In this document: positions 7,216 to 63,729 of the stretch, piece by piece | How the letters are laid out: every line of letters begins with the position of its first letter | Position numbering within the stretch: the first letter of the stretch is position 1 | Origin: Chamaelirium japonicum | Lineage: Eukaryota > Streptophyta > Magnoliopsida > Liliales > Melanthiaceae | Assembly (NCBI GenBank): GCA_947650365.1 | Contig: OX393552.1 | Span: forward strand, 22,316,012 to 22,380,011 | Length of the DNA: 64,000 bases | Direction of reading: 5' to 3' | The notes under the pieces: model-generated | What the model was told of the DNA's origin: nothing | Seen by the model: only the letters and a program-made list of their open reading frames with translations | Databases searched by the model: none | Made by a program: the position numbers and the translations under genes

Positions 7216-10200
7216 CTAGCGTAGCAAAACGGTTTTTACTCCCATCGCGTCCACATGTCGCTCGAATGCCTTGGTAGGTATTGCCTTTGTGAAAGGATCA
7301 GCAACATTATCTGTAGATGCAATCTGTGTAACCGCTACTCGCCCTTGCTTTTGAAACTGCCAAATCAAGTGGAACTTGCGCTCGATGTGCTTCCCCTTTT
7401 GGTGATGTCTTGGCTCCTTTGCTTGTGCTACCGCCCCACTATTGTCGCAATAAAGCACAATAGGTAATTGAGCCTCTGGTACGCACCCCAAATCCGTAAG
7501 GAATTTCTTGAGCCATACCGCCTCTTTGGCTGCCTCGCACGCTGCAACGTACTCAGCCTCTGTGGTAGAGTCTACGATGCATTTCTGCTTTATACTCTGC
7601 CAACTAACCGCTGCTCTTCCTAACATAAACACAAAACCCGATGTCGATTTTCTGGATTCCAAATCTGATATAAAGTCAGAATCTATGTATCCAATCGGCG
7701 TCAGTTCTTGTGCAGTGTAAACCAACTCATAGTCCCTTGTTCTACGAAGGTACTTGAGTATACACTTCACTGCTGTCCAGTGATCTGGACCCGGATTCGA
7801 CTGAAACCGACCCATTATGCCTACTGCGAAACAGATATCTGGCCTTGTACAATGCATAGCATACATTAGACTACCTAATGCCGAAGCATAAGGTATCTTC
7901 TGCATTTCTGCTCTCTCCTCAGGTGTCTTAGGACATTGATCCTTAGACAGTTTTACACCATGTTTAAATGGCACAAAACCCTTCTTGGAGTTTTGCATGT
8001 CAAACCTAGCCATAACCTTATCTATATACGCGGCCTGTGACAGCGAGAGAATCATGTTCTGGCGATCACGTGTTACCTTGATCCCCAAAACATAACTCGC
8101 TTCACCTAGGTCTTTCATATTGAACTGGGTTGACAACCAGACCTTTACCGTTGACAATGTTCCAACATCATTTCCAATGAGTAGAATATCGTCTACGTAA
8201 AGTATCAAATATACCACTGTAGTCTTATCACTCCTCTTGTATACACATGGTTCATTCTCGTTTTGAGTAAATCCATATGACTGGATTGCCTGATCAAAAT
8301 GGATGTTCCAACTTCTAGATGCTTGCTTTAGTCCATAAATGGACTTCTGCAACTTGCAAACCAGATGTTCCTGACCCTCTGACTCAAAATCTGGTGGCTG
8401 CATCATATAAATGTCTTCTTCCAAATTTTCATTAAGGAATGCTATCTTGACATCCATTTGCTCGATCTCCCAGTTGTAATGGGCTGCAATGGATAGGAGG
8501 ATCTGAATAGACTTTATCATAGCTACCGGCGAGAAGGTTTTGTCAAAGTCGATTCCTTCTCTCTGGGTATAACTCTTGGCAACTAATCTAGCTTTATAAG
8601 TCTCAATTGTACCATCGAATCCTCTCTTCTTCTTATACACCCACTTACACCCAATAGGTTTAATATTGGATGATGGTGTAACAAGAGTCCAGACTGCATT
8701 ATGGGACATTGATGCAATTTCTGCCTCCATAGATTTTTGCCAGTCAGAGCCGTCAGAAGCTCTCACTGCCTCATCGTAGCTCCGTGGGTCATCCTCCTGA
8801 CCTTCTGGATCAACCAATAAGGTTTCTCCATAGTATCTGTCAGGAGCTCTGATGCTTCTCCCACTGCGACGAGGTGGTGGCTGTGTTACAGGATAAATTG
8901 GTTCTACAGTTTCTGGTATATTAATGTCTGTGATGTCAGCTCCCACTATGCTTTTGGATGCGCTCTCTGATCTAGTACCTAGTAGCTCATCCAGAACTAC
9001 CTTACTAGCAGGCTTATGGTCCATCATATAATCATGTTCTAGGAAAATGGCATTCGTTGAAACGATTACCTTCTTTTCCTCAGGATCATAAAATAGTCCA
9101 CTTTTAGTCTCTCTGGGATACCCTACAAACAGACATGCTTTGGACTTTGGCTCCATCTTTTCCCTCTTGTCTATCCGCACATGTGCAGGACATCCTCATA
9201 TTCTGAAATACTGTAGTGTTGGCTTTTGCCTTGACCACAGTTCTCTCGAGGTCTGAGGCACTGATTTAGACGGAACATGGTTCAGAACATATGCTACTGT
9301 CTGAAGGGCATATCCCCAAAAGGTCATTGGTAAATTGGCATAACTCATCATGCTGCGAACCATGTCCAACAAGGTTCGATTCCTTCTCTCGATACTCTAT
9401 TCTATTGTGGGGTACCTGGATCAATTAACTGGGATGTTATCCCATGCTCCATCAAATACCCTAGGAACTCGTCAGATAGGTATTCACCTCCTCGATCAGA
9501 TCGAAGGGTTTTTATACATTTACCTGTCTGCTTTTCTACTTCAGCCCTGAACTCTTTGAACATGTCAAAGAATTTCGACTTCCGATGCATTAGGTAAATG
9601 TAACCATATCTTGAGTAATCATCAGTAAAAGTGATGAAGTACTCATGACCTTCTATCACCTTGACGCTCATGGGTCCATATACATCTGAATGGATTAACT
9701 CCAATACCTCAGTGGCTCTCACTCCTTTACCTTTGAAGGCCCTCTTGGTCATCTTGTCTTCCAGGCAGGATTCACAGGTGGGAAGAATCTCCGTAGGATC
9801 TGTTTCCAGAAGCCCGGCCTTTACCAACCTATGGATCCTGTCTAAGGCAATATGCCCAAGCCGTAAGTGCCACAATTGGGTTAAATTCTCTGAAGGTTTC
9901 TTACGCTTAGATGAATTAACATTAAATGCTGAAGTTATTATGTTATCCTTTTCAAATTTAGGACTGACAATATAGAGATGATTCTGAACCATTCCTCTTA
10001 TTATAAAAGTTCCATTCAGCTTAAACGACACACCAGAAGCATCAAAATAAAATGAATAACCTTCATTAACGAAAGAAGAAACAGAAATCAAGTTACGTCT
10101 CAAGAACGGTACATAAAAAATATCTCTAAGAGTCAAAGTCTTATTATTCGAAAAACTAAGATTAACATCTCCAATAGCTTCAGCAGCAGCCACGGCCTCA

Positions 10201-10376
10201 GTTCCCATGCTCAAGGTCACCTCTCCATCAAGCAACCTTCTGCTTTCCCGAAACCCCTGAAGAGAGTTACATGCATGGTTAGTGGATCCTGAATCTACAA
10301 TCCAACTAGCAAAAGAACTATTACTTGAAAAAAATGATTCAACAAATAAGAGTTGTAGATTACCTTCACCAGCATT
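7216..10376 (-). pseudogene. Copia pol: protease, integrase, reverse transcriptase, RNase H (three lesions)
   Basis: The protease has the aspartic site 'VDSGSTNH' near 10280. It is followed by the integrase zinc region ('WHLRLGH' ... 'CESC') and a catalytic core with 'HSDVYGP' and 'SDRGGEY' (about 9400-9900). The frame is then broken: a TAG at 9402-9404 replaces a glutamine codon in the 'PGTPQ' block, a 1-bp deletion follows within about 25 bp, and a TGA near 9205 replaces a tryptophan codon. From 9180 to 7216 the frame is open for 654 residues with the Copia reverse transcriptase, including the catalytic 'YVDD' (in 'LILYVDDILLIGND'), and RNase H ('TTEAEYVAA', 'YCDNSGA'). The two stops fit C-to-T/G-to-A decay. 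The enzyme domains look conserved, but a full polyprotein cannot be made without bypassing the lesions. Confidence 0.93.
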
Positions 10377-11180
10377 CTAAGGCTTCTTGCAGTCCTTCTT
10401 CCAATGACCCTTTTGGCCACACCAGAAACACTTCGTGCCCGGTTTCTTTGATTCTCCAGACCCAGAGGCCCCAGCAGAGTCCTGCACAGGCACTGACTTA
10501 GGTTTCCTTTTATGTTTCTTGCCCTGAGGTTTACCAAACTTCTTGAAGGATCTGCGTTGCACGTGAAGTGCTTCGCCCTTCTGCTTGAAGCCATCCTCAG
10601 CTGCCTGGAGAGCTCCCAGAAGCTCTGCATTTGTCATAGCCAACTTGTTCAAATTAAAGTTGGTGACAAAGCCTTCAAAGGCTCCAGACAATGATGAGAG
10701 GAAGATGTCTGTCATTACCTCGTCTTCTAGCACAATGTCCATGGTCGCTAGTTCGTTCTCGAACCCAAACATTTTCATCATGTGTTCCCGAACCAGCGTC
10801 CCATTGGACATCTTAGTGCCGATGAGTTTCTTGATGGTAAGGTATCGCGTAACGCGATTGTGACCTTCAAACATCTCCTTCAGATACAACATCATGTTAG
10901 AAGCGTCGGGCATCTCCTCGACTTGTTTCTGCAGAGTTATTTGCAAGGATACTATAATATAGCATTTACATATTTCATTAGATTCCTTCCAGTCAGTGAA
11001 AGCCTTTAACTGTGCCTCTGTGGCATCGGGTCCTAGCAAATCTGGCTTAGAGTCATTCAGGGCTGTCATGTGTTTACCAATCCTTAGGACTAAGTACAGG
11101 TTGCACTTCCAGTCTTCATAGTTGGGACCGGTAAGTTTGTGGTCATTTAGGATAGCGGACAGGGGGTCTAACTTAGTCAT
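10377..11180 (-). CDS. Copia gag (capsid/nucleocapsid)
   Basis: The frame codes for about 267 residues if it starts at the methionine of 'MTKLDPLSAIL'; an earlier in-frame methionine at 11213 is less likely because family gag proteins begin just before 'LxxxKLTGPNY.DWK'. The N-terminal part matches the plant Copia gag domain, and the C-terminus has one CCHC zinc knuckle (CFWCGQKGHWKKDC) after a lysine-rich stretch, the RNA-binding nucleocapsid. The product would build the virus-like particle. The TAG stop (10377-10379) falls three residues after the knuckle, and the protease continues in the same frame without any shift. Most plant Copia elements have one uninterrupted gag-pol frame, so this is either a mutation or a readthrough arrangement. 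Confidence 0.92.
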   Translation of the reverse strand: MTKLDPLSAILNDHKLTGPNYEDWKCNLYLVLRIGKHMTALNDSKPDLLGPDATEAQLKAFTDWKESNEICKCYIIVSLQITLQKQVEEMPDASNMMLYLKEMFEGHNRVTRYLTIKKLIGTKMSNGTLVREHMMKMFGFENELATMDIVLEDEVMTDIFLSSLSGAFEGFVTNFNLNKLAMTNAELLGALQAAEDGFKQKGEALHVQRRSFKKFGKPQGKKHKRKPKSVPVQDSAGASGSGESKKPGTKCFWCGQKGHWKKDCKKP

Positions 11181-12913
11181 CTGAAAATAAAAGATTGAAT
11201 AATGAGAATGCATGAAAACTTATTTTATGGATTTTTAAAATAAGCTAATTATATCCATATGTCAATGCTACCCTTAAGCGAAGCCATCTCTATGGATTAA
11301 TTAACCATGTATGTAAGATCTCGGAGTAGGCTACACCTATCAGAGGGGGTAGTGTGCAGGTCTTCCGCTTACACGGGTCTTTCACTTGACCCTATCCAAA
11401 TCTGCCAACTAATGGCTTTGATGGACCATGGTTATCTTTTGGCCAGTACCACGTGATCACCGTTGTCTTCGCAACGAATACCTCACGTGTACTTAGGATG
11501 TTTATCCACAAGCTTAGGCAATTACGGCACGGGAATTCTAACGGCCCCCACGAGGGTGAGTAAAGCCTGAACACTTGGCACCGTAACTGCCATATCCTGA
11601 AGGAGATCACTAAGTAGCTTGGTATAGAAAAAACACAGCTCTCACCCGAGGGGGTTGTTGAGTTATGCCCTTCCACCCGAGCACGAAGTGATTAGCCGTG
11701 GAGGCCAGAGGATTTCTAAAAGTCCTCTCTTACATCCCTTATATTTATGTGAGGGTTATTTTGTGAGTATGAATTTATGCAAATGCAAAGGTAGCGACCT
11801 CCTAAATACTAGACCCTGATCACACCATGCTCCCACTAGCGTTCAAGCCCTTCGCCTAGCATTAATCATTCTCGGAATATCATAGTCCTTGCCTTGAGCG
11901 GATTTCTCCATTCAAGGGTCACATTACATATTCCGAGAATATCGATGCTCTGCAAAATTGGTTATCACGCTAATGCTCTAGAGCTAATCCTAGAGTCAGA
12001 CTCACTGGAAAGGACTCCCACTAGTCATGGCGCCTCGCTTATGAATTTGACAATTGATGTTCAATGGATCTCCATCTCATCTTTGATTTCGATGTTGGCC
12101 AAATAGGCACACCCGACTAGTCGGATGTTGACCTAATGGTGGCATAACCATATGTGATGGGATCCCACTAACATCAAAAGTCAAATAAATAATAGGCGTC
12201 ATCTAGCGGGATCCTATCCTCAAACAGTCGCTTGGACCGGAGGGGAAAGACATTCCTCTGAAAACTGATAATCATATTATCTCATCGGGGTTCGATATGA
12301 AGCATAAAGAACTAACAAAGAAAGCAACCATAAAGACTGAAATTAAGTTCAGGGTCCGACCCCTGAACCTAATTAGCACAGCGCAGGTCTCTAGCTTTCT
12401 TCGCAAAGTTCCTCGGTCCGGCTCCTCCGTCGCGCTCGCGAATACTTTACCGGATCGTCTTTATCCTCCAGGGTTCCGCTCATGCTCCCGATGGTGGATT
12501 TCTTTGGCACATCTTTCTTCTCGATCTGTAACCGAAAAAGTCTAGTACGCTTCGAGCAAGTACTCGCTCGTACACAATTTCCTAGAAAGAAAAGAAAACA
12601 CACCTAGAAAAAGGGTCATGGGAACCGAGGATGGTCAACCCCCATCACTCGCCCAATCTACGGCTCAATTACATATCAACAAACAAAGAGAGCAAATCCA
12701 GACAATGGCTAACTCGGGGTCCGACCCCCGGTAGCAAGCACAAAACATAGATCTAGATTTTTTATAGCGGCACCCGGCAAGAATGATTAATAGAACAAGC
12801 ACAATATATACTTATGCATGATCTAAGCGTAAGAACCCCGATGATCTCACGTATTCATCATGCGCACATATGTTGGTTTCATGAATAATCGTGAAACGCA
12901 CACCACTATTGCG
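11181..12913 (-). other. Copia untranslated leader
   Basis: About 1.7 kb between the primer-binding site and gag has no protein-like reading frame. It includes several short repeated motifs such as GGTCCGACCC (about 12352 and 12718) and would carry packaging or translation signals, but none can be named. Confidence 0.6.
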
Positions 12914-19170: not shown

Positions 19171-20153
<983 letters not shown>

Positions 20154-21397
20154 CTTGGTAGTAGAGCCTTTCCCCTGATCCTTTATCCATATAGTTAGGG
20201 TTTAGATCTAGTCTTATAATTGTCAATGGGTTTGTTCTAGATTTTTGTTCCTTTCTAGATCAATGAACACATTGACAATCTACAAGGGGATCATGAAGTT
20301 TTTTGATTTAATCCGCACAAATTATTGCTCCAATTTATCGGAAGTCCGTGGATCCGAATTAAAGCGGGTCGTGTGGCATAGTACGTCTCCGATATTCGGA
20401 ACAAACGGTTGTGTGCATAAGACTCATTATTTTGGGTCATAAAGAATTGTTACGGGTTATCTCAAATTATTTTCGTTGAATAAAGTCTTCCCCTTGGCGG
20501 TGCTATATGGATAATTGCAGTGATGTTTTTGAGGTACATATCAATTATTCATTGTGATAGGCATAAAGTTTGTGAATGCGTGTGTCGACCAAGCATCCGT
20601 TATGGATGTCATATATTAGATGCTTCCATAGGTTGCGATGGAGCTCCGAAACAGAGAGAGTGAAGACTGCCTTTTTTCTTTATATTTGTTGATGTAATTT
20701 AAGAGGTTTGTCTTCTTAACAGTGCTTCCAACTTGTACTATTTTGGGCTTGTAATATTCAACACTGTGGATGTTGTTGTTTGTAGTCTTGTATATGGTTG
20801 ATTGTTCTGTGATTGTCTAGGATGCACTAGTTGGTACTATAAGCCTAATTGAACAATTGATATGGAATTAAACCATTTGATTTGCATATTTTTATTTGAC
20901 TGAATCTGCAATGTGTTTGTGATTAGTCACGATCTAAAGATCTTTCGTGGGGAATGGCTCATGACTAGCCAAAGCATTCTGGATCATTCTCCATGAGTGA
21001 TTTATACAGTACGTCACTATGGTGTGTTGAATCACGTAAATTTTATCGGTCGTGACATTCCCTCTTCTAGTTGCATCAATATTAGAGGTTGTCTTTACTC
21101 ATAAGGAAGTGATCTCCAACACCATGCAATTAGGGCAAGGAGGTTAATTGTATAATAAGAAAGAGATGGTTCTTATACCCACAAGAAAAGAATAATTACT
21201 TAGACTCATTGTACAATTCACAGGTCCTATCGAGAAACATGAGTTTCTTATGGATAAATTAGTAAAACTCCTATGTTGAGCAATCTTTGCCCAAAAGAAG
21301 GTATGAGTTTTACTAACTGGTAATTAGCATGACCTAATCATCAGATAAATGATAATTTAAATATGCCTCGTATAAATGTGAGCTTTTTCCTTTTCCA

Positions 21398-22276
21398 ATG
21401 ACCTCGTCTTACATCTCAGACCTTATCGAGAGTCTTCTCTCCCTGTCCGAGGAGAATTTCTCGGACTGGAATGATAAGATTATTTTGGCATTAGATTGTC
21501 CGTATGGATCCTCCTATGGATTTAAAGGAGAAAAGCACTACATTCGACGTATGAACATACGAGAGTTGGGAGAAATCCAATCGTCTCATTATGTTTTTCA
21601 TCCAGTTCCGTATCAAAAAGGGCATCAGGAGTTCTATTCCTGATTGCCGACTGGTTAAAGACTACATGAAATCCTTGGCTGGGCAATTTAAAAGATCTGA
21701 CAAAGCCATGGTCAACACCCTAGTGGAAAAACTGTCAACCATGCGTCTGACTGGTGATAAAGGAATGTGAGAGCATATCATGCAGATGAATGATATTTCT
21801 GCACAATTGAGGCTTTGAAATCATCATCGACGAAACTTTCTTGATGCACTTTATCCTAAACTCATTACCCATGCACCCAGTACGGGCAATTTAAAATATC
21901 CTACAACACGCATATCACTAACTAAACAGCTAATGAACTATTAGCTATACATGCAAGAGGAGAGTAAGGTTGAGGCAAGAGAAGGTGGAGAGCATACACT
22001 TTGCATCTCGTAAAGCTACACAGACACAATCCAAGACACGTAAAGCTACCTACACTAAGAAAAACAAAGAGAATGGCATATCCATACAGAATAAAGATGA
22101 TGACACGAAGGTTCCCAAATGCTTCTTTTGCAACAACTGGGGACAAGTGAAGTACTGCGAGAAGTATAAGAAATGGCTTGCCAAGCAAGGAAAGCTTTCA
22201 GTTTTACTGTGTTAAGAATCTAACTACGTTAATTCTTATAAATATGACAAAAATTGGTGGATTGATTCTGACCATT
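21398..22276 (+). pseudogene. Copia gag fragment, plus-strand arm of an inverted pair
   Basis: The first 81 codons match the N-terminus of a Copia gag ('SLSEENFSDWNDKIILALDC'). After stops and frame changes come the blocks 'KSLAGQFKRSDKAMVNTLVEKL', 'MRLTGDKGM', 'HIMQM', a lysine-rich stretch and a zinc-knuckle remnant ('KCFFCNNWGQ'). Several stops and at least two shifts make it non-functional. Its closest relative in the window is the minus-strand copy at 22663-23530, with which it forms a long inverted repeat. Confidence 0.85.
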
Positions 22277-22662
22277 TGTAACTTATGCCCCAAACACACA
22301 AGATATTATCGGCTTTGCCTGTGCCCGCACGAGGACTTCCCAGGAGTTCACCCATCATAGTACTACTCTAGCTTGAGCATGCTTAACTATAGAGTTCTTA
22401 CAGGATCTGTAGCGGCGCATAATTTTAAAATGCATCTTCTATGTTTATGAGAGAAAATTATATAAGTAGCTCAAGATATCCTTTCTCTCCAGGCGATGTA
22501 GGGCTAACTTATAGCCATGGACACCTCACCTCACCTCATCCATTTTGGCATCACAGCCTCAAAAGTCTTGGCTAGCTATTGGCTATTGGATCTTGGTCGT
22601 CATAATCCACACCCTTTAAGGCCACATATCTATGTATAGGGTTAGACCCCCCATCACAGGGA
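22277..22662 (-). mobile_element. Broken Cassandra-type TRIM (one LTR plus part of the interior)
   Basis: It matches the complete Cassandra element at 62307-63035 from its TGTAAC end through one LTR (22277-22604) and about 58 bp of interior, then stops. The LTR holds a 5S rRNA-like segment on the minus strand at about 22328-22399. The second LTR is gone; instead the right arm of the gag inverted repeat begins. It forms the spacer between the two gag arms. Confidence 0.8.
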
Positions 22663-23530
22663 GAATCAATCCACTAATTATTGTCTAATTTATGAGAATT
22701 AACATAGTTAGATTGATAAAATACTAAAACTGAAACATTTCCTTGTTTGACAAGCCACTTTTGTAGTTCTCCTAGTCCTTCACATGTCCACGGTTCCTGT
22801 AGAAGAAGCACTTGGGAACCTTCGGGTCATCCTTTTTCTGTATGGATATGCCATTCCATTTGTTCTTCTTAGTGGGGGCAACTTTACGTGTCTTATACTG
22901 TGTAGCCTTATAAGATACGAAGTGCGCGCTCTGCACCTTCTCTTGCCTTAACCATACCTCCTCTTGCATGCACATCGTCAACAGTTCATTGACTATCCAG
23001 TTGGTGTTGTGTGTGTTGTAGTTAATTTTAAATTGCACATACTAAGCGGGTAGTGAGTTCATGATAAAGTGTACTAAGAAAGTTTCGTCAATGACGATCT
23101 TCAAAGCCTTCAGTTGTGTAGTAATATCACGCATTTGCATAATATGCTCTCGCATTCCTTTATCACCAGTTAGATGCATGGTTGATTGTTTTTCCATTAG
23201 GGTGTTGACCATGTATTTTTCAAAGCTTTTGAATTGCTCATCCAAGACTTTCATGTAGACTTTAACCAGTCGGCATTAATGAAATGAACTCCTGATGTAC
23301 TTTTTGATATGGGACTAGATGAACAATATACTGAGACAATTGGATTTCTTCAATCACTTATACGTTGATACGTCAATTGGCATGCTTTTCTCCATTGGAT
23401 CCATAGGATGATCCAAACGAACACTATAATACAAAAAGAATCTTATCTTTCCAATCCGAGAAATTCTCCCCGGACAGATAATGAAGGCACTGAGTAAGGT
23501 CTTAGATGTAAGACGGGGTAACTGAATATG
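22663..23530 (-). pseudogene. Copia gag fragment, minus-strand arm of an inverted pair
   Basis: Read on the minus strand this repeats the plus-strand gag at 21398-22276 in the same order: the 'NFSDWKDKI'-like N-terminus (about 23440-23480), 'EQFKSFEKYMVNTLMEKQ' and 'GDKGMREHIMQMRDITTQLKALKIVIDETFLVHFI' (23254-23042), then 'NWIVNELLTMCMQEE' and a zinc-knuckle remnant ('KCFFYRNRGHVKD', one cysteine replaced). The longest open part is better preserved than in the partner. The arm also includes non-coding sequence at both ends shared with the other arm. Confidence 0.85.
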
Positions 23531-23539
23531 CTAATTATA

Positions 23540-24110
23540 TGCTAGTAAAACTCAGACCTCCCTGTGAGCAAAGGTACGTTGCTCTTCGCAGGAGTTTACT
23601 TTTCACAATTGGTCTTGATTGTACTGCTTTGTTGCGACTACAGTTGGCCCCAAACCAAGGTCGAAGGGATAATACCTCGTGACTAGAGCAATGCAAGCAT
23701 TTACCAGCTTGTGGTTCCCCGAGGTTATTTGACGTGTTTATTATTATTATTTTTTGTATTTTTGAAGCTTTATATGGTGCTCTCTCCTTGAGCAGTAATC
23801 CAATCATTGAATCTTCACAATCGGTGATGGATCTGGGGGGCAGATTCAAAAGAGAACCCCTTATTATAATAGTATTAGTTATGATTATATAAGTCCCCCC
23901 TCCTCCCAAGGTTCGATTCATGCATCCGTCCCTATTCACAATGATCCCAATATTTCAGATGGTGCTGAGGTTACTAATATTAATTAATTTTTATGTAGCT
24001 AATTTCATAAATTTATTGTGCTTCATTCCATGGCTGAACCAAATGGTAAAATGACTAAATTTTATTTGATTGATCCCTAGTGATATCTTTGAAAGATATT
24101 TGCTGGCGCT
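23540..24110. other. Intergenic, no gene recognised
   Basis: A reading frame at 23535-23939 on the minus strand has no recognisable domain. Nothing else is supported here. Confidence 0.35.
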
Positions 24111-24112
24111 AA

Positions 24113-24560
24113 GGGTCTATTTGTATTCGGTCAACATGCTAATTAGTTAAATAAATAGTTTAAAAGCTTTACTTTGCGCGCTGCTGTTTAGATTCAAAAC
24201 ATTGTAGTAAAGTAAATGGCAGGAGGTTTACTAGTAGCTAAAGTTTTACTCGGAAAAAGCCAAGTAAAAACTTTTGATTTACTAGTATTTCAAAGACACC
24301 GTTGAGCCACGCCATGTCAGCAACGGCATAGCCGAGAGAGCATCTCCTGATGGATTTGGCTCCTCTCTACTGATGAACTTAGTTTTAACGGCTACAATCT
24401 ATGGGCCATGGGATGAGCCATAGGGGGATGCCACCGGCCGGTGCCGCCCGGCTTGCTGGCCGCTGTGCGTCGTGGTCGCCGACCACTACTCCTGTGGACA
24501 GCTGTGTGCCCCGCCATCCACCACCTGCCACCGACCACTGTTGAGCGGCCAATTGATGCT
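24113..24560. mobile_element. Partial Harbinger-like MITE, left end
   Basis: It starts GGGTCTATTTGTATTCGG and matches the left part of the complete element at 25376-28572 for about 340 bp, including TGGGCCATGGGATGA, then becomes GC-rich like that element's interior. The right terminal repeat is missing. Confidence 0.55.
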
Positions 24561-25372: not shown

Positions 25373-25726
25373 TTAGGGCCTTTGCATTCGGTTAACAGGT
25401 AACTAGTAAAGTAAATGAAAGAAAAAGTTTTACTTTAATTTGGTCCTGTTTGGATTAAAGAAGCTATAGTAAAGTAAATGCAAGAGATTTACAAGTAGTA
25501 AAAAAGTTTTACTTTGAAAAAACTAAGTAAAACTTTTGATTTATTAGTAAAAGGCTTCGTTGATCATGCCATACCAGCAATTGCATGATCGAGAGAGCAT
25601 CCCACAATGGATTCGAATCCTCTCCATCGATGATCCCACTTTCAATGGCCACGTACAATTGATGGGCCATGGGATGATCCCTAGGGGGATGCCGCCACCA
25701 CTGGCCGCTATATACCCATGGCCACC

Positions 25727-36858: not shown

Positions 36859-39800
36859 ATGGCCTGCTCTTCCTTGTTATTAAATCCCGTCACCACCTCC
36901 GCCCCTACTTGGTCTCCTCCAAGCTCTGCCTTCCCCTTCCCGTCACGGCCGCCCCTCTCTTCCGATCGCCGCCGGACCCCCGGCGCAAGGCGCCTCTTTG
37001 CCCGCACCCGCCGGAGGAGCCGACGCGGCAGGCCGGAGAAGGAGGGCATGGCCCCCTCCAGTGCCCCGCTGCCCCTCAGGCGGACCATCTACGACGAGGA
37101 GGCGGCGCTGAGGCCTCCGGAGCCTGACGGCGGCGAGATCGAGCTCTTCTATCCCGATCACAGAAGCGGTGAGTTCGAGCTCCCCCCCCTTTCCCTCTCC
37201 TCCCCGTTTCATTCCACAATTATCCAATTCGCTTAAAGGGGCGGTGGAGTGCAAATTGGTGCCTAAAGAGCTGATTCATGATAATATCAGGTCTGATATT
37301 CCTTATATAAGATCATCGATTTAACTCAAAAATTCTTTCTTTTATATCTCCTTAGAATATTCTCTCATGAAATTTCTTTGAATTATCTTGATGAATCTCC
37401 GCCATGTCTCCAATGAAACTCGGATAAGTAGGATAGATAGTGATATTAGAACACGGCCTAGAAGAAGGAATCCTGTTAACCAACCCTAAGCAAACTTAAA
37501 CCATTAGAGAGCACGAATTACCAAGACATGAGATTTGGTCCCGGTGCTCGAAAAGTTTGAAGCTTTTTGTGTGGAGAAATCATTATAACGTTGTTGAATG
37601 TTTTCTTACTAGGCCATATGATGAATGCAGTTTGTCTTCTTAGCTAGAGATTAGGGGTCGTTTGGTTCACATAATACAGTCTTGGAATCATATTCCGATT
37701 CCTTGGCATCTTATTCCTGGGAATCGGAATAGGATTCCGGTGTTTAGTTCGTGTAAGGAAAAGACCAGGACATAGGCCATAATCCTTATTCATCCCCAAA
37801 ATATGTTTGGTTCAACATAGGAATGAGGGTGGGAATCCTGGATTATGCCCATTATACCCTTCCATTTTCATTTTCATTTCCATTCCCATGTTTGGGTTGA
37901 TTAACCATGGAATGATAATTAACTGCAAAAAAAAAAAAAAAAAGGAATGAGAACTAGTGATGTGTGGGGGGAGTGATGACACAGTAACTTTTGGGCTAGC
38001 ACCGTGTTTGTTATTGGTAGATTTGAGAATTTGGGTTTGGGTTTGGAACTAGAAAAATAATTAAGGTTTGACTTACCAATTCGGGTTCGAATCGGTCGTT
38101 TCAGATCAAAATCTCGTGATATATAAATCATAGAATAACTACGAAATTCATATATACAATTCAAACTAATAGGACAATGATATGAACCAAAACCTAATAA
38201 GACTCGATTCAGGGCATAGTGTGGGTTCAGGGCTTTGGATTGGCCAAAGACCAAATCAGTTTATAGGTGAACCGATTCGGCTTCCGATGAACCCCAAACC
38301 ATGCTTATTGGTCTTCTTCCCTTTTTTATCAGTAGACTGCTAATAGAAAAGGGAAGAAGACCGATAAGAGACACGAGACTAGCACAAAAGTTACATGAGT
38401 CATCCACAAAAGTTACACACACGCACGCACGCACGCACGAGCCAGTGATGTTTGGGGAGTGAATGATTCGAGTAACTTTTGGGCTAGCTCCGTGTCTCTT
38501 ATTGGTCTTCAGCATTGGTTTCAAGCTCCAATTTTTTTATTTATAACCTCCTGCTTAGTTACACATTAGTATTTAGTTTGTTTCTAGTAGGGTGTTCATG
38601 AATAGATAGCAGTTGGATAGTTCTATCTTCGAATCTCTTAGGTGGCTTGTCCAATTTCTTCTCTACCTTTTAAGTGTCAATTTTGGTGCATGGATTTCTA
38701 TAGCATACTTCCTAGTTGGTGTTTCATACTTCGAATAATGCGCTATAACTCTCATTGGAGTTGTTTGGTCCATTTTGGCAATGTGTATTTGATAATTCTA
38801 AGAGATATAGACATATTATCCAGTAGAGAGAATTGTTGTGATCATTTTATGAGAATCTGTCAAAGCATTGTTCTTTTGAAGCTTAATAATTGACACATCA
38901 ATTTGACTTCTTTAAAACGTAGGGTTGGCTAGGGGTGCAACTTGGGCGGGTTGGACCCGTGCCCAACTCGAATTTTGGGCAGGTTTCGGTTGATGTATTT
39001 GAAAATTGGGTTGGGTTAGGGTTGAAAAAATACAACCCGAGTTTAATTTGGGTCGGGCTTGGGTTGAGGGGTCGGGCAACCCGACCCGACCTGAACCCGA
39101 GTACTCTTGTATATCTATTGAGTTTATGATATATAGGTAACAATCACAACCATCTCGAGTACTCATATGTTGAGGGTCCGTAGTCACAGTCATCCGTTTC
39201 ACCCAGTGCCATATTATTTATTAGCTTATTGCTCATCAAATAAATGCATTATCTAATGATCTAGTAAATTGCATGGATAGAAATGTTTAAAAAGTTGTAT
39301 GGTAGTGCTAGCAAGTAAAAGTTTTTTTAAAATTTTGATATTCAAAGGTTAAAATTTTAAACAAGTATACTCGAACTTGCACAACCCGATCCTTCCTACC
39401 AACTTGGGCTAACCCGAGCCCACCCGAGCATAGAAATTTTTGCTTGGGTTGGGCTTGGGCTAGGCATCTCGGGTTGGAGGTTGGGTTGGGTTGGGCTCGG
39501 GTTGGAGGTTTTAGTATTTGGGTTGGGCTTGGGTTGATCCTCAACCCGACCCAACCCGCCCGAGTTGCAGCCCTAGGGTTGGCGAACATGAAATATCTTG
39601 TTTTGGAGAATCCATTGAAGGCTATGTTTTTTTAAGAGCAGAACGCAAATCAAACTTTAATTTTACTTTAATCGAGATACCTCCTGCAGGTACTTCAGCA
39701 TCAAGGAATCAACTACTTCCAGTTAAAAGTGACGCATCAATGAAAGATATTGAGGGGGAGAAACACCCCTCAACTGCAAGTGTACTTAGAAAGAGCAGGT

Positions 39801-42800
39801 CTAAGGTGAACTCTTTAAAATGCTTTGGGGTTGACCTGTCCCCAGACAACATTGCAGTTGCTATTGTATATTTTGTGCAAGGAGTTCTAGGGCTTTCCAG
39901 GCTTGCTGTCAGCTTTTACATGAAAGACGATCTTCATCTTGACCCAGCAGAGGTATGCCTTCTTTTTGTCTCTTGATGTGAGTTTTATTTGTTTAAACCC
40001 ATTGTTCTGTAAAATATTTTTATTTAACTGTCCTTTGGGCCTTTCGTGTTTTCAATATCCTGCCAGTGCTTTTCTGCCAACCGCTTTGCCAATTTGACGT
40101 GGCACCTGATCACAGCAGTCCGTTTGCCTGCTTGTTGAGGCTGAGTGTGATTCACCGGTTGGGGCTGGGTGCAACGGACGACTGTGATCGTGCAACGTCA
40201 AGTTGGTAAACGGGTTGGCAGAATAGCATTTTCCTTTGTGTATCTATCGGTGCAGCTTTGTATTTTCTTTCTTAAAACAGTCAGTCATGTTTATATAAAC
40301 ATTTCTGACAAAGCATACTGCTGGTTTCTTGGCAAGTAAAAGGGGTGTGAGAATCTTGGAGTCCGAGATGTTATTCTTCATGGATAGAGATTAACACCTT
40401 CTATCTCATTTTGTTTAGACAGCAGTTATATCTGGTATATCTGCCTTGCCATGGCTGATCAAGCCTGTTTATGGGTTTATCAGGTTAGGCAAACTATTTC
40501 ATATCTGTCATTCTCTAGAATTGCTGCATCCTTTCATTGAACATACATGCGTAAATGCTTTCTTGGTGGCAGTGACTCCATCCCTCTTTTTGGCTACCGG
40601 AGAAGGTCATATCTTATTCTATCGGGGCTTCTTGGAGCACTTTCATGGAGCTTGATGGCCACTGTTGTTGACAGCAAGTATGGTGTGGCAATATGCATTC
40701 TTCTTGGATCTCTTTCAGTTGCCTTTTCAGATGTTGTAAGTGCCATTGGTCGCGTTAATTTGCAATTTGTACACCACTTTCTTTACGTGCTTATATTTGT
40801 CGGCATCGTAGCCATTCCACTTTTCAATGTATTACCTTTCCTTTGGAAAATAGGATTTCTTTCATACCTATTATGTGTTTAGGGTTTATGTTACAACTCA
40901 CAAGCACCTTTGTACATCATGTTTTGTAATAGCTTGCAGATTGACATCGTATGTGCTTCTTGCTGAAATCAACAATCATTGAGCTACAAACGTGCATTAA
41001 TAAGATTCTTCGATCCTTTATTTTCCTCGGACACCCGGATACACTTTTGAAAAAGTGGAATTTAATTAGATCTAGTCATGGTTGTCTTTACAGAACTAAA
41101 TCTCAGTAGTAGTTGAAGTTATACTAATGGTTCACTTATGCTTCAAATATTTGTTGGTTGAGCAGCAAGTGTTCACTGTAGTTCATAGCAGTGCTATATT
41201 TATCTCTACAACTTGCCTGTCTTATTCATCATCTTTATTTTCGTACTATAACAGATGATGCGCTTTGTACAGATTACTGACACATAAAATGCAGGTGGTA
41301 GATTCTATGGTTGTCGAGAGGGCTCGTGGTGAGTCACAGAGCACATCTGGATCTCTTCAATCTTTATGTTGGGGATCTTCAGCCTTTGGTGGTATTGTGA
41401 GCGCATACTTTAGTGGGTCTCTAGTGGATGCTTTTGGTGTAAGGTGGGTTAAGTAGATTGTGGATTACATAATACTGCTTCTTAGCTGATGCACATAATA
41501 AGCTTTTATTGTATTCTCTGTCTATGCAGATTTGTTTTTGGTGTGACAGCATTTCTTCCATTGATGACATCAGCAGTTGCCCTTCTTGTAAAGGAACAAG
41601 CTACGCCTTCTGCTGGAGAACATAATCCTTCAACTTCTGATCTGGGGTTTCTTGAAAGCTCCAAGCAACATGTCATGCAGCTGTGGGATGCTGTCAGGCA
41701 GCCCGACATCCTTTTGCCCACCTTATTCATATTTCTGTGGCAAGCAACACCACATTCAGACTCTGCCATGTTTTTCTTTACGTATGCTTTCCAACCCAGC
41801 ATAATTGTTCATTTTTTTTTTCATATTAATAGAATTGTCTTAATAAATATAAGCCACCAGCATTAGATTTTACTGCTAAATGTTTCCTTCAATGGAACTC
41901 GTTTGAATGATGGCACCTGATATCCTGTCATATAGATTATTGAGTGGCACTTAAAAAATCGCTGAGTTCTTCAAGTCATTGTTGGGCTCACACCTATGCT
42001 GATGACAAGCCCAAATGAGAAAGGTCGAGGGATGCCGTTAGTGATAATAATAAAGTGAATCTTAATTTGCTTTTTCTTAATGATAGGATGTCCTGTGCAA
42101 GTGACAGTGCTTAGCCATGTGATGGTCAAAATGAGCAAGGGTTAGCTAGAGCTCCCCCCCAATAAGTGATTTGTCACAATTTAATCTGATTGTTGAGAAT
42201 TTGGCAAGGATTAGCTCAAATATCTCTTGTAAGCAATGCATAGATTTGCACTTGCTAGGGTCTCTTAGAAGCAACTTGTCGCAATTACTCTTAGTCAGAA
42301 TGAGAGGAATACAAAGACTATGTTAAATAAATTGAGGGCAGTAAAAGAAGGTATACACTCGCACACAAAACACAAAGAGGGAGGGAGGGTGGTGAGGAAC
42401 GGAGAATTATATTAGTATTAATAAAAGGAGAAGGGACACTGGTAGTTTATTGTGAAAGAGTAGTGAAATTGTGGATGCATGACGAGGAGAGTGAAAAACC
42501 AAAGAGAAGGGAGAAAACTCTAAGGAAATTGGATGTCGAAAGCATATATAGTAGGGAAATATAAAATACCAGAAATGGATCTAAATTCTAAAGTATTGGT
42601 AGCTAAAGATGTGAAGTATAGAAGTAGAGATGTTTGATGAACTTGGAGCTCTTAAGTTCATATTATGTGGCAAGATTATTGATGCAATTATGCACCACTA
42701 GTGAGAGATGCAAGAGAAGACTGTATAGTCTATAAAAGCAATTTTAGGTGGGTATCGATGTTATAATTCAATAAATTCCGAAGAAAATTATATAAATAGA

Positions 42801-60750: not shown

Positions 60751-62354
60751 ATCTGGGGTCTGGTAAATCCCTTCCGGATATTTACCAAAACTCCAGATAC
60801 TTTCAAAACTCTATAAATAGCGGACGTTGTAAATATTCCAGATTGGAATTCATTATTCCCAACTATTAGAGTTGGTGTGTTTTTAGCTTGAAAAACTCTA
60901 TTTTGATATATTATTAAAGGATAAATATTATTATATGAGATGCATGGTGTTACGTAATATAGTTACATGCTCTTTTAAGACAGAGAGTCATGACTACATG
61001 GTAGTCCACTAAGTTAAAGACTAAGTAGATTGGTCCCATGTAACCTAAATAAGCTCGCAGCTGTGATCATATTGGTCGCCTTATCATGTTAGGCTATTGG
61101 GGGTAGTAACAGTACATGGGTGTCTTCACCATAGTCACACCAGGCACAGTGTCTATAGTCAAACGAAACTAACATGGTGCACAGATTAGTGAGTAGACAC
61201 CAGTGCGCTAAGTCATGTTTCTGCTTAGGGTAAAACATTTCTAAACCCTGAGGAACCATAACTGATGGGCTAACCAGTTGTGTGGTGTTTTGACACACGA
61301 ATGTATGAGGGTTCAGTTACATGACCCAAAACCAAGATGTACCAGGTTACCTGACTGGCATCGCATCAGTGTGCCACTCCGGCCAGTCACATCAGCGTGC
61401 CACTCCTACAAACCATCCACACCCCTAACGGGAGGTGTATTCCTTGGTCTGACTTGCGTCGTATTGAACTCAAGCCTGGTGGTCATCAGTTGGACTGTTG
61501 ACCAAATCTGGTTACTCGATAGGGTAATCGGAGGTATGACGTACATAGTCAACCTGGAAGAAACTGAGTCGTATGAGCACTCAATTCTGATGATATTCTC
61601 CATCACTCGAGTTGTATCATGGCACCAAGTAAAGGGACCACGAGTTTAGCACTACTAAGTGGAAAGCAGGGCTATGTGGAAGAAAATAGTAAGCCAGGGG
61701 GAATGGAGTGTAATCTGTGTCGCACTCTGGGTGGTTACGTAGGTTAACTCGGACTAAGAGGATCGACAGTACACTCGGGGGGTGTTTCGATCGAGTTTGA
61801 ATTGGAAGTCATGAACCCTGGTTACTAAAGGTTCCACCTGATCGATATTATATACGATCCTTGCACGTACCATCTCCTCGAAACACATGGCACAATTAGA
61901 GGAAGTAGGAAGTCCAAGCCTACGTTCTGTGTGTGCTTCGCACTAGTGCACGGTAGATACGTAGCTTCGTGTGCGTACTAAGGGAAAACTCTATAATGGT
62001 ACGGTAGCACACAATGTCATCCCTTACCATAAGTGGACTCCGCCATATGGGTGCGAAGCACCGAGACATGTTGCGAGTTGACTAGTTGACTTTGCTAGAG
62101 GCACCCTATATATTTACTAAGGGCACCCTGGTGAATAATGAAATCACTAGTGCACTTCACTTATGTGTGTCATGCGACTTCTCGCGCACGTTGGATGACC
62201 AATTAGTGACACAGGGGCGTTTTTGGTGAAATCAAACGTCACTGTGTACTAAGGGGGCCGGCCCTACGGGTGTAAGAACATGCATGGCCGCCCCCTTGAT
62301 TATAGGTGTAACATCCGCCCCAAACATATAAGATATTGTCCGCTTTGTCCGTGC

Positions 62355-62432
62355 CTGCACGAGAACTTCCCAGAGTGGTCACCCATCCTAGTACTACTCT
62401 CGCCCGAGCACGCTTAACTATGGAGTTCTTAC
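62355..62432 (-). other. 5S rRNA-derived promoter segment in the Cassandra 3' LTR
   Basis: On the minus strand the order AACTCC, TTAAGCGTGCTCGGGCGAG, AGTAGTACTAGGATGGGTGA and GGGAAGT follows plant 5S rRNA from about position 40 to 100. The A box, the intermediate element (GTAGTA) and most of the C box are kept, so RNA polymerase III binding is possible. The 5' and 3' ends of 5S are absent, so this is not a 5S gene. Confidence 0.85.
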
Positions 62433-62765
62433 GAAATCCGTAGCGGCGCACGGTTTTAAAACACGTCTTCTATATTTGAGAGGGGAAATTATATAAGTTG
62501 CTTAGGATCTCCTTCTCTTCAGGCGATGTAGGGCTAACTCGTGGCCTTGTACACCTTACCTTACCTCATCTTATCCATCTTGACATCCCAGCCTGAGGAG
62601 TCTTGGCTCTTGGCCTATTGGATCTTGGTCGTCACAATCCACCCCCCTTAGGGTTACATGTCCTCGTGTAGGGTTAGACCCCCCCATCCCGAGGAGAACC
62701 GGCTCTGATATTATTTTGTAACATTCACCCCAAATACACAAGATATTGTCTGCTTTGCCCGTGCC

Positions 62766-62841
62766 CGCATGAGAACTTTCTAGTGTGATCACCCATTCTA
62801 GTACTACTCTCGCCTGAGCACGCTTAATTACGGAGTTCTTC
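62766..62841 (-). other. 5S rRNA-derived promoter segment in the Cassandra 5' LTR
   Basis: This is the second copy of the 5S-like segment, with more changes (for example GCTCAGGCGAG in the A box and GAATGGGTGATCAC in the C box). In element sense it lies upstream of the interior. Confidence 0.8.
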
Positions 62842-63729
62842 GAAATCCGTAGCGGCGCACGGTTTTAAAACGCGTCTTCTATATTTGAGATGGAAAATTA
62901 TATAAGTAGCTCAGGATCTTCTTCTCTCCATGCAATGTAGGGCTAATTCGTGGCCTTGTACACCTCACCTTATCTATCTTGGCATCCCAGCCTCAGGAGT
63001 CTTGGCTCTTGACCTATTAGATCTTGGTCGTCACAATAGGAGTGGAAAGCACCATATTAGGGGCCGACCCTATAGTATAGGACATATGGCTTTGACTTGG
63101 GGTTTTCAACCCCTAAAAGCTAGGAGACAAGGGAGAGAAGTTAGAAGCCCGACCCTAGCAAGTTGCACACACAACCTAGGGGGGCGGCCTCATCAAAAGG
63201 AGCAAGAGGAGAGGGCTGGTTGGCCCTATTGAAGCCATACCCGACCCCCCCCCCCCCCTCAAGTTCTCAATCTCTTTTCTCTCTCTTGTCTCCCTCGTTT
63301 GCAACTTCGTCTTCCTCACGTGGTGTCTTCGTAGACAAGAAGGGCTAACGTAAGGTGGCACTCAGAGATCCTTCATTGGTGTGCCGTGCATCGTGTGAGA
63401 TCAGGTGAATATTGAAGGCATCGTCTCTCACGTATCATCGGCTTCTTCGCAGACTATTTTCCGTCTGCATCGATAAAGAAGATAATTCTCCGCGGTTAAA
63501 AGATCCGCAAGAAGGTATGCAATATCCTAACTCGTAGATCTTGTGTAGAATCAAATTGTATGCATGCTAGTTATTCATATCGTTAGATTGCTATTAGGGT
63601 GTTCGATTCATGTGCACACACGTAAACACGCATGTAACTAGTTTAAATCGTGTAATGCGCACCACACATGATCTTTGGATCGGCAAATCGCTTCCATTGC
63701 GAGCCTCTATCATAGGATTTTTTTTAACA

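Follow-up and report, generated by a model that had tools for sequence, protein, structure and literature searches.

Two segments of one Copia retrotransposon family that face each other across a broken Cassandra element raise the question of whether such a locus feeds small-RNA silencing or is merely the debris of an old rearrangement, and of how the inverted arrangement came about. The locus lies within a 64,000-nt stretch of the Chamaelirium japonicum genome (contig OX393552.1, positions 22,316,012 to 22,380,011), hereafter the window. An initial annotation had placed inverted Copia gag fragments around a Cassandra spacer, and BLAST and alignment confirm this layout at essentially the same coordinates: two leader/gag segments, tail to tail, with the Cassandra piece between them. 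The parts of the locus are as follows.

19171–20153, + strand: 5′ LTR at the head of the truncated Copia element to which the + arm belongs; it matches LTR parts in 12 of the 16 fetched loci, and its ends were set against L012 and L013.
20156–20167, + strand: PBS-like site, TGGTAGTAGAGC, directly after the LTR, where L012 and L013 have TGGTATCAGAGC; we take it to correspond to tRNA-Met.
20168–21397, + strand: leader of the + copy, aligning with the leader of family copies; the portion from 21265 is also present in the − arm.
21265–22270, + strand: + arm (BLAST, alignments), the end of the leader plus gag, stopping at the gag/protease boundary.
22271–22276, + strand: 6 nt between the recognizable + arm homology and the Cassandra LTR terminus (junction comparison).
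22277–22604, − strand: Cassandra LTR (3′ LTR in the sense of the element), aligning with both LTRs of the intact 62-kb copy and with genomic copies.
22321–22434, − strand: degraded 5S rRNA-like segment in the Cassandra LTR (Rfam RF00001, 30.1 bits, E = 0.00028, below the gathering score of 38).
22605–22665, − strand: leftover Cassandra internal domain, PPT side; its last 4 nt are shared with the − arm (AGAA/TTCT).
22662–23597, − strand: − arm (BLAST, alignments), an inverted copy of the leader/gag segment of the + arm, stopping in the leader.
23598–24105, no strand assigned: flank beyond the − arm, for which neither the window, the 16 loci nor the scored genome candidates gave a match.

When the arms were aligned, as the initial annotation had suggested, 747 of 928 columns were identical (80.5%), with 86 gap columns; BLAST joins 21401–22269 to the reverse of 22662–23519 at 80% over 873 columns (E = 0), with a further 70-nt piece from the leader. 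The match between the arms is not a chance similarity. The homology had been described as reaching both Cassandra borders, which holds to within 7 nt: a gap of 6 nt intervenes on the side of the + arm, and the − arm and Cassandra overlap by TTCT. Positions 22272–22276 would be the 5-bp target duplication, if any existed; no second copy of them adjoins the broken Cassandra end. The − arm resumes at most 7 nt from the Cassandra insertion point.

The + arm represents the start of a Copia copy that retains its 5′ LTR, with a TATA-like site at 19703; both this LTR and the PBS-like site had been overlooked. The copy keeps only the 5′ LTR, leader and gag, with neither pol nor a pair of LTRs: within the window the 5′ LTR matches only itself, and the pol-side stretches of 11 relatives (of the 16 loci) have no match between 20.1 and 58.3 kb. 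In the relatives, about 2 kb separates gag from the 3′ LTR. Farther away, the pol-side stretches of three of the 11 (L009, L015 and L021) match the window at 6.0–6.9, 13.9–14.8 and 58.4–62.2 kb, which we take to be different repeats lying within or next to those copies. Assignment to Copia-type gag rests on the related copies L010 and L015 rather than on the broken gag of the window itself: Pfam family PF14223 (Retrotran_gag_2) was found on the gag piece of L015 (E = 7.3e-08), and the scan of the L010 piece returned no family. One of the two gag pieces thus supports the earlier placement of both arms in the same Copia family. Gag is broken in both relatives, which were the two translated, and L010 also contains an RVT_2 remnant below the cutoff.

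The spacer, 22277–22665, is a minus-strand Cassandra with one LTR and about 60 nt of internal domain, from which the PBS and the other LTR are absent. As in Cassandra, a 5S-bearing TRIM, the LTR includes a 5S-like segment and the internal domain is short; unlike an intact element, the spacer copy lacks the PBS and 5′ LTR, and its 5S score falls below the Rfam threshold. The yardstick was an intact Cassandra at 62307–63035, bordered by ATAGG on both sides (62302–62306 and 63036–63040); by comparison, the spacer offers one LTR and a partial internal domain instead of two LTRs, PBS, PPT and target duplication. The best genomic matches of the LTR reach 81%–85% (best 40 of 5924 first-look candidates scored, at least 80 matches). 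The spacer is a truncated relic of the Cassandra family, and the earlier reading of a broken Cassandra with a 5S-like segment stands, albeit with the subthreshold score given above. Its LTR terminus lies beside the + arm and its internal break is joined to the − arm at TTCT; gag and the Cassandra internal domain and 3′ LTR are both in sense on the minus strand.

A tree of the two arms and 12 of the 16 loci (L020, L022, L023 and L024, broken or partial, were left out) joins the arms as sisters with support of 100/99, on a shared branch of 0.05 followed by 0.13 each. Sixteen states occur in the two arms and in no other row; the next best of the 91 pairs has five such states. In genome searches with either arm, the other arm ranked top at 80% among the candidates scored (best 40 of 145 and best 40 of 166), and within the same candidates the next full-length matches reached 76%–77%, the shorter ones 79% over 757 bases, 80% over 342 bases and 84%–88% in pieces below 80 bases. 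The end branch of the Cassandra LTR measured 0.15 among nine rows (0.048–0.13 for the other eight) and 0.14 among 27 rows (median 0.02), the latter comprising 24 LTRs from 11 of 19 Cassandra loci, taken from plus-strand matches longer than 300 nt, the spacer and the two 62-kb LTRs, with unsettled bootstrap. Since 0.14 is close to the 0.13 of the arms, the parts look about equally old, given an error that we estimate at roughly 0.01–0.02 and a Cassandra branch that indicates no more than the maximum age of the insertion.

Does the locus act, or has it acted, on the Copia family? In silencing hairpins of the Mu killer (Muk) type, the arms form long, near-perfect double-stranded RNA. The initial annotation had proposed that a transcript through the locus would fold into a hairpin and could serve as such a trigger. 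Folding of a transcript spanning 21265–23597 upholds the first part, with imperfect pairing: 788 of the 1006 bases of the + arm are predicted to pair with the − arm, the longest stack being 45 bp including G-U pairs. At 80.5% identity, near-perfect double-stranded RNA is not to be had from these arms; only one 21-mer, and not a single 24-mer, occurs in both, and the longest ungapped run in their alignment is 19. When k-mers from the gag parts of the arms and from 12 of the 16 loci were compared with all 16, only 12 of 853 and 28 of 846 gag 21-mers of the two arms matched any of the other family loci, as against 100–268 for 11 ordinary copies and 10 of 865 for L021. Judged on these 16 loci, the expected sequence match to the elements to be silenced is not found. 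Read on the plus-strand transcript, 50 of the transitions between the arms keep a G-U pair and 57 break pairing, next to 74 transversions; the changes show no bias toward keeping G-U (50 versus 57, binomial p = 0.56) and hence no sign of selection for maintained pairing. The G-U comparison and the guide-match counts speak against a maintained hairpin.

Read-through by polymerase III from the 5S segment was considered as a driver of the hairpin and rejected. TTTT occurs at 22430–22427, right where the 5S model match begins, and TTTTT at 22253–22249, beyond the LTR end, about 70 nt past the 5S-like segment and 181 nt from the beginning of the model match. A transcript from the 5S promoter would meet this TTTTT shortly after leaving the LTR and would cover only about 22 nt of the arm instead of running through it. 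A hairpin transcript would have to originate in the Copia 5′ LTR or in a neighbour. The upstream 5′ LTR, with its TATA-like site, has the right orientation for a transcript that would cross both arms and be diced into siRNAs directed at Copia copies of this family, and the predicted fold would accommodate it; yet the paucity of 21-mers and 24-mers shared between the arms or with the family, the even balance of G-U changes and the broken gag of both translated relatives make an active trigger very improbable. The silencing reading is therefore weak and the suggested analogy to Muk is not borne out. Muk in maize is likewise a rearranged, inverted transposon copy whose transcript can form a hairpin; that hairpin is reported to be transcribed, processed to 21–22-nt RNAs and nearly identical in sequence to a MuDR terminal repeat (PMC8224964), whereas the present arms are 80.5% identical and have few 21-mers matching the other family loci read.

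How unusual is the arrangement? Across 224 kb (the window plus 16 loci chosen for the Copia family, and hence a rough background), inverted pairs 150 bp or longer and less than 1 kb apart occur outside this locus only as two Cassandra–Cassandra pairs in L020. Among 19 Cassandra loci of 3.4 kb each, with 1.5-kb flanks (L034–L052, the best-scoring copies and thus a non-random set, with L036 and L043 both overlapping one array), L042 (367 columns, 77%) and L047 (305 columns, 81%) contain shorter inverted pairs that are not Cassandra and have small spacers, and L041 holds an array of inverted repeats; close inverted repeats are therefore not rare in this genome. In none of these 19 other loci do inverted repeats of other sequence flank a central Cassandra: the inverted pairs that straddle it in L038, L046 and L050 match Cassandra to Cassandra, and in L047 Cassandra appears inside one arm of another inverted repeat, off centre.

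Several origins deserve consideration. The gag segment might have been doubled tail to tail first, with Cassandra inserting later at or near the centre and losing its 5′ LTR. The arms are sisters and end at the same gag position, as fold-back duplication demands; however, Cassandra would need to land within a few nucleotides of the midpoint of a repeat 2 kb long, after which DNA would have to be lost exactly up to the other arm, the centre point carries no exceptional hairpin in 13 relatives, and the Cassandra branch is not shorter than those of the arms (0.14 versus 0.13), so that this order appears unlikely. Several relatives do have a quasi-palindrome, GATTCCGGATC, at the junction (junction view of 14 of the 16 loci). 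Fold-back at the gag-end hairpin was nonetheless rejected as the main cause, its stability being unexceptional (6% to 47% of 32-nt windows are at least as stable in 13 of the 16 loci). Slightly more doubtful are two independent, opposite insertions of one Copia subfamily, each later truncated, with Cassandra between them. Close inverted repeats elsewhere (L042, L047) and the presence of Cassandra in another family copy (L020) would fit, but the two copies stop no more than 7 nt apart in gag, each arm finds its best genome match in the other among the candidates scored and is its sister in the tree, the 5′ LTR is single in the window, and pol-side matches of the 11 relatives lie only outside 20.1–58.3 kb. 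We give least credence to a reverse-transcription chimera, in which cDNA synthesis switched from Cassandra to Copia RNA and the product inserted beside a resident Copia copy. The sense-to-sense fusion with its TTCT overlap fits such a switch, and template switching has been proposed for Cassandra arrays (PMC7215508); sense orientation, however, is an even chance anyway, and landing at most 7 nt from the homologous position of a sister copy would be left unexplained.

We consider it reasonably likely, from the sequence features above, that a single truncated Copia element was rearranged here long ago, by Cassandra insertion and a template switch, and has since decayed; on this reading the locus is a relic, which probably arose as Cassandra landed at the gag/protease boundary or later. 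In this account, a Cassandra TRIM would have inserted on the minus strand at that boundary and, then or later, a strand crossing its internal domain would have switched at the 4-nt match (TTCT/AGAA) to the opposite gag strand, copying about 0.94 kb back beside the insertion point and generating the inverted gag copy. Cassandra PBS and 5′ LTR, along with Copia pol and 3′ LTR, would have been lost, and all parts would afterwards have drifted under no visible constraint. What the data show directly is the layout, the arms as sisters, comparable branch lengths and no trace of constraint on pairing; order and mechanism, including the switch and its timing, we infer. The most economical version, slightly favoured over two separate events, is one-ended Cassandra integration in which the free end was repaired with the sister strand at that site as template. 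That a single aberrant event of this kind, with one-ended joining of Cassandra cDNA and annealing of the broken end at the 4-nt match, made the inverted target duplication part of LTR-element integration itself is a tentative proposal, possible but doubtful; with no similar case among the 19 other Cassandra loci, it would be uncommon. The favoured account leaves the partner at the outer end of the − arm and the loss of pol unexplained. The flank at 23598–24105 has no match in the window, the 16 fetched loci or the best 40 of 1825 genome candidates scored, all of which, except the window itself, matched a repeat starting at about 24105.

Inverted duplications formed by template switching are a known general class, and the present copy resembles them in being joined at a 4-nt match; unlike in that class, its breakpoint falls no more than 7 nt from a retrotransposon insertion. 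We found no report of an inverted duplication at a retrotransposon insertion among the titles and abstract openings consulted. Nested plant LTR elements often lie between GAG and AP, one of the more frequent nesting positions according to PMC6911290, and Cassandra likewise sits at the gag/protease boundary, although the host element does not continue beyond the site and an inverted copy of gag follows instead.

The locus likely has no present role beyond transposon debris, an absence of function that we infer. Inverted transposon copies can seed heritable silencing, so each candidate is worth checking, and this case shows how sequence alone can separate a decayed inverted pair from a likely live trigger, through arm divergence, guide match to the family and the G-U direction of changes. 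If one-ended integration is true, new hairpins would arise from nested insertions; if it is general, it would provide a route from retrotransposon insertion to hairpin-forming inverted repeats that may seed siRNAs.

The inverted pair of Copia gag fragments around a Cassandra element reported in the initial annotation is correct as observed, and its anatomy now extends to a 5′ LTR and a leader. A Copia leader/gag segment is present twice, tail to tail, with a truncated Cassandra, a 5S-bearing TRIM, between the copies.

Features of the locus and of related elements in the window
19171–20153, plus strand: 5′ LTR of the Copia copy carrying the plus arm; parts matched in 12/16 fetched genomic relatives
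21265–22270, plus strand: plus arm, leader/gag, the front of a Copia element that retains its 5′ LTR, a PBS-like site and a leader
22662–23597, minus strand: minus arm, inverted leader/gag, with its outer end in the leader at 23597
62307–63035 (62302–63040 with target duplications), minus strand: intact reference Cassandra, 5-bp ATAGG on either side
10377–11213 (gag), 9402–10235 and 7216–9180 (pol pieces), minus strand: candidate Copia ORFs, by ORF reading

Aligned for divergence, as the initial annotation had proposed, the arms are identical in 747/928 columns (80.5%; 86 gap columns), with little variation along their length: blocks of at most 100 columns range from 77% to 86%. The spacer Cassandra LTR, on the minus strand, runs from a proper terminus, TGTAAC, at 22277 to 22604, beyond which ~60 nt of the internal domain survive; neither the PBS nor the second LTR is present. 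The polymerase III-type 5S segment ascribed to the spacer is present, but scores only 30.1 bits against the Rfam threshold of 38, which the segment of the intact Cassandra at 62 kb exceeds (51.6 bits; its LTRs are 86.7% identical to each other).

In a phylogeny that also included 12 of the 16 relatives, the two arms are sisters (support 100/99); their common branch measures 0.05 and each terminal branch 0.13. Eleven of the remaining rows radiate as a near-star with terminal branches of 0.058–0.12, and L021 has 0.19. Sixteen states are exclusive to the two arms, the runner-up among 91 pairs having five. Among the 40 of 145 and 40 of 166 first-look candidates that were scored in the 1.52 Gb genome, where the window lies at G000:C4:22316012-22380011, the top match of each arm is the other arm (80%). 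Full-length matches follow at 76%–77%, with shorter ones at 79% (757 bases) and 80% (342 bases), and pieces of <80 bases at 84%–88%. The end branch of the spacer LTR, an upper bound on insertion age, is 0.15 among 9 rows (other eight, 0.048–0.13). In a 27-row comparison with copies picked by score, it is 0.14 against a median of 0.02. Because these values lie close to 0.13, the three parts appear to be of similar age, given wide errors.

The Copia copy carrying the plus arm has no second LTR in the window, where its LTR matches itself alone. Homology to it stops at 22267–22271 in 12 of 14 relatives reaching the gag end, and at 22259 and 22281 in the remaining two; unlike this copy, the relatives continue beyond gag. 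L010 and L015, both translated, carry a reduced pol; from the gag end to the 3′ LTR they span ~2 kb, as do L011, L013, L014 and L019 (2.4 kb in L012), and such copies perhaps constitute a non-autonomous, gag-bearing deletion family. In L015, Pfam recognized a gag of Copia type (E 7.3e-08); it assigned no family to the gag piece of L010, but in that locus gave an RVT_2 remnant under its cutoff. Pol-side stretches of 11 relatives have no match within 20.1–58.3 kb, LTR parts being matched at 19.2–20.1 kb; those of L009, L015 and L021 match at 6.0–14.8 and 58.4–62.2 kb, which we take for putative other repeats. Another relative, L020 (G000:C114:430500-440499), has been hit by Cassandra several times, in either orientation and once within gag. 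The long minus-strand ORFs at 7216–11213 belong to a candidate Copia element much better kept than that of the arms. The 0.5 kb outside the minus arm (beyond 23597) matches nothing in the window, the 16 loci or the 40 scored of 1825 genome candidates, although a single-copy flank is not implied, as these 40, window aside, all match a dispersed repeat from ~24105. Direct repeats at 24106–24435 and 25381–25696 (74% identical) belong to a dispersed family with 1825 first-look candidates genome-wide, 40 of them scored. An ORF at 39518–39976 resembles a membrane transporter, putatively of the folate-biopterin type, and is perhaps part of a host gene.

The proposal that a transcript from the Copia LTR crosses both arms and acts as a silencing hairpin is not borne out by the sequence. 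Such a transcript would span both arms and is predicted to fold (2333 nt; MFE −1183 kcal/mol), with 788/1006 plus-arm bases paired to the minus arm and a longest stack of 45 bp including G-U pairs. However, the arms have a single 21-mer in common (at 22071) and no 24-mer, and few of their gag 21-mers (12/853 and 28/846) or 24-mers (2/850 and 7/843) match any of the 16 family loci, compared with 100–268 and 57–213, respectively, in 11 ordinary copies and 10/865 and 1/862 in the divergent L021. Nor do arm-to-arm changes prefer G-U pairs (50 vs. 57). Mu killer, the analogy drawn initially, is described as transcribed, diced to 21–22-nt RNAs and nearly identical to a MuDR terminal repeat (PMC8224964), whereas 21-mers of the arms rarely match the 16 family loci. 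Supply of the hairpin transcript by the Pol III segment is unlikely, since it runs into TTTTT at 22253–22249. A weak residual silencing role is possible; the locus represents an old, rearranged remnant of element families that are already known.

Both joints lie within 7 nt of one and the same gag position. On the plus side, gag ends in GATTCTG (22270), followed by six nucleotides and the Cassandra terminus; on the other, it ends in GATTCT (22662, minus strand), which Cassandra internal sequence GGTTCTCC overlaps by TTCT. Given the proper terminus on one side and the overlap on the other, the first resembles a joint made by integration and the second a joint made by microhomology. Nesting between GAG and AP is described as among the more frequent positions in plant LTR elements (PMC6911290), so a Cassandra at the gag/protease boundary is ordinary; the unusual feature is the minus arm restarting at the insertion point. 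By plain arithmetic, the odds of a restart within 7 nt by chance are near 0.0075, if every start position up to 1 kb to the left or right were open to the inverted copy. Probably, one Copia copy underwent inverted duplication around a nested Cassandra, and the result is now a relic. In a more specific version, which we consider possible but less likely than not, Cassandra would have integrated at one end only and its free end been repaired by copying of the sister strand, leaving the inverted gag copy; both joints and the equal ages would then follow from a single event. Two alternatives would each require an additional coincidence: that a Cassandra-bearing copy underwent a template switch later, or that Cassandra landed in an existing palindrome.

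Among 19 further Cassandra loci, taken as the best-scoring copies, none has a Cassandra centred in an inverted non-Cassandra repeat, but close inverted repeats without Cassandra at the centre do occur (L042, L047, L041). In L047 (382–703/855–1157 + 1895–1952), Cassandra is apparently inserted within one arm. Cassandra copies inverted relative to each other in L038, L046 (up to 97% over 265 columns) and L050 are hairpin candidates, putatively younger than the pair studied here.

It is very improbable that a switch during reverse transcription fused gag to Cassandra: on the minus strand the fusion is sense to sense, as such a switch would yield, but landing beside the sister copy would be left unexplained. 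Since the helper element of Cassandra is described as unknown (PMC10886601), a fusion of this origin would be a clue.
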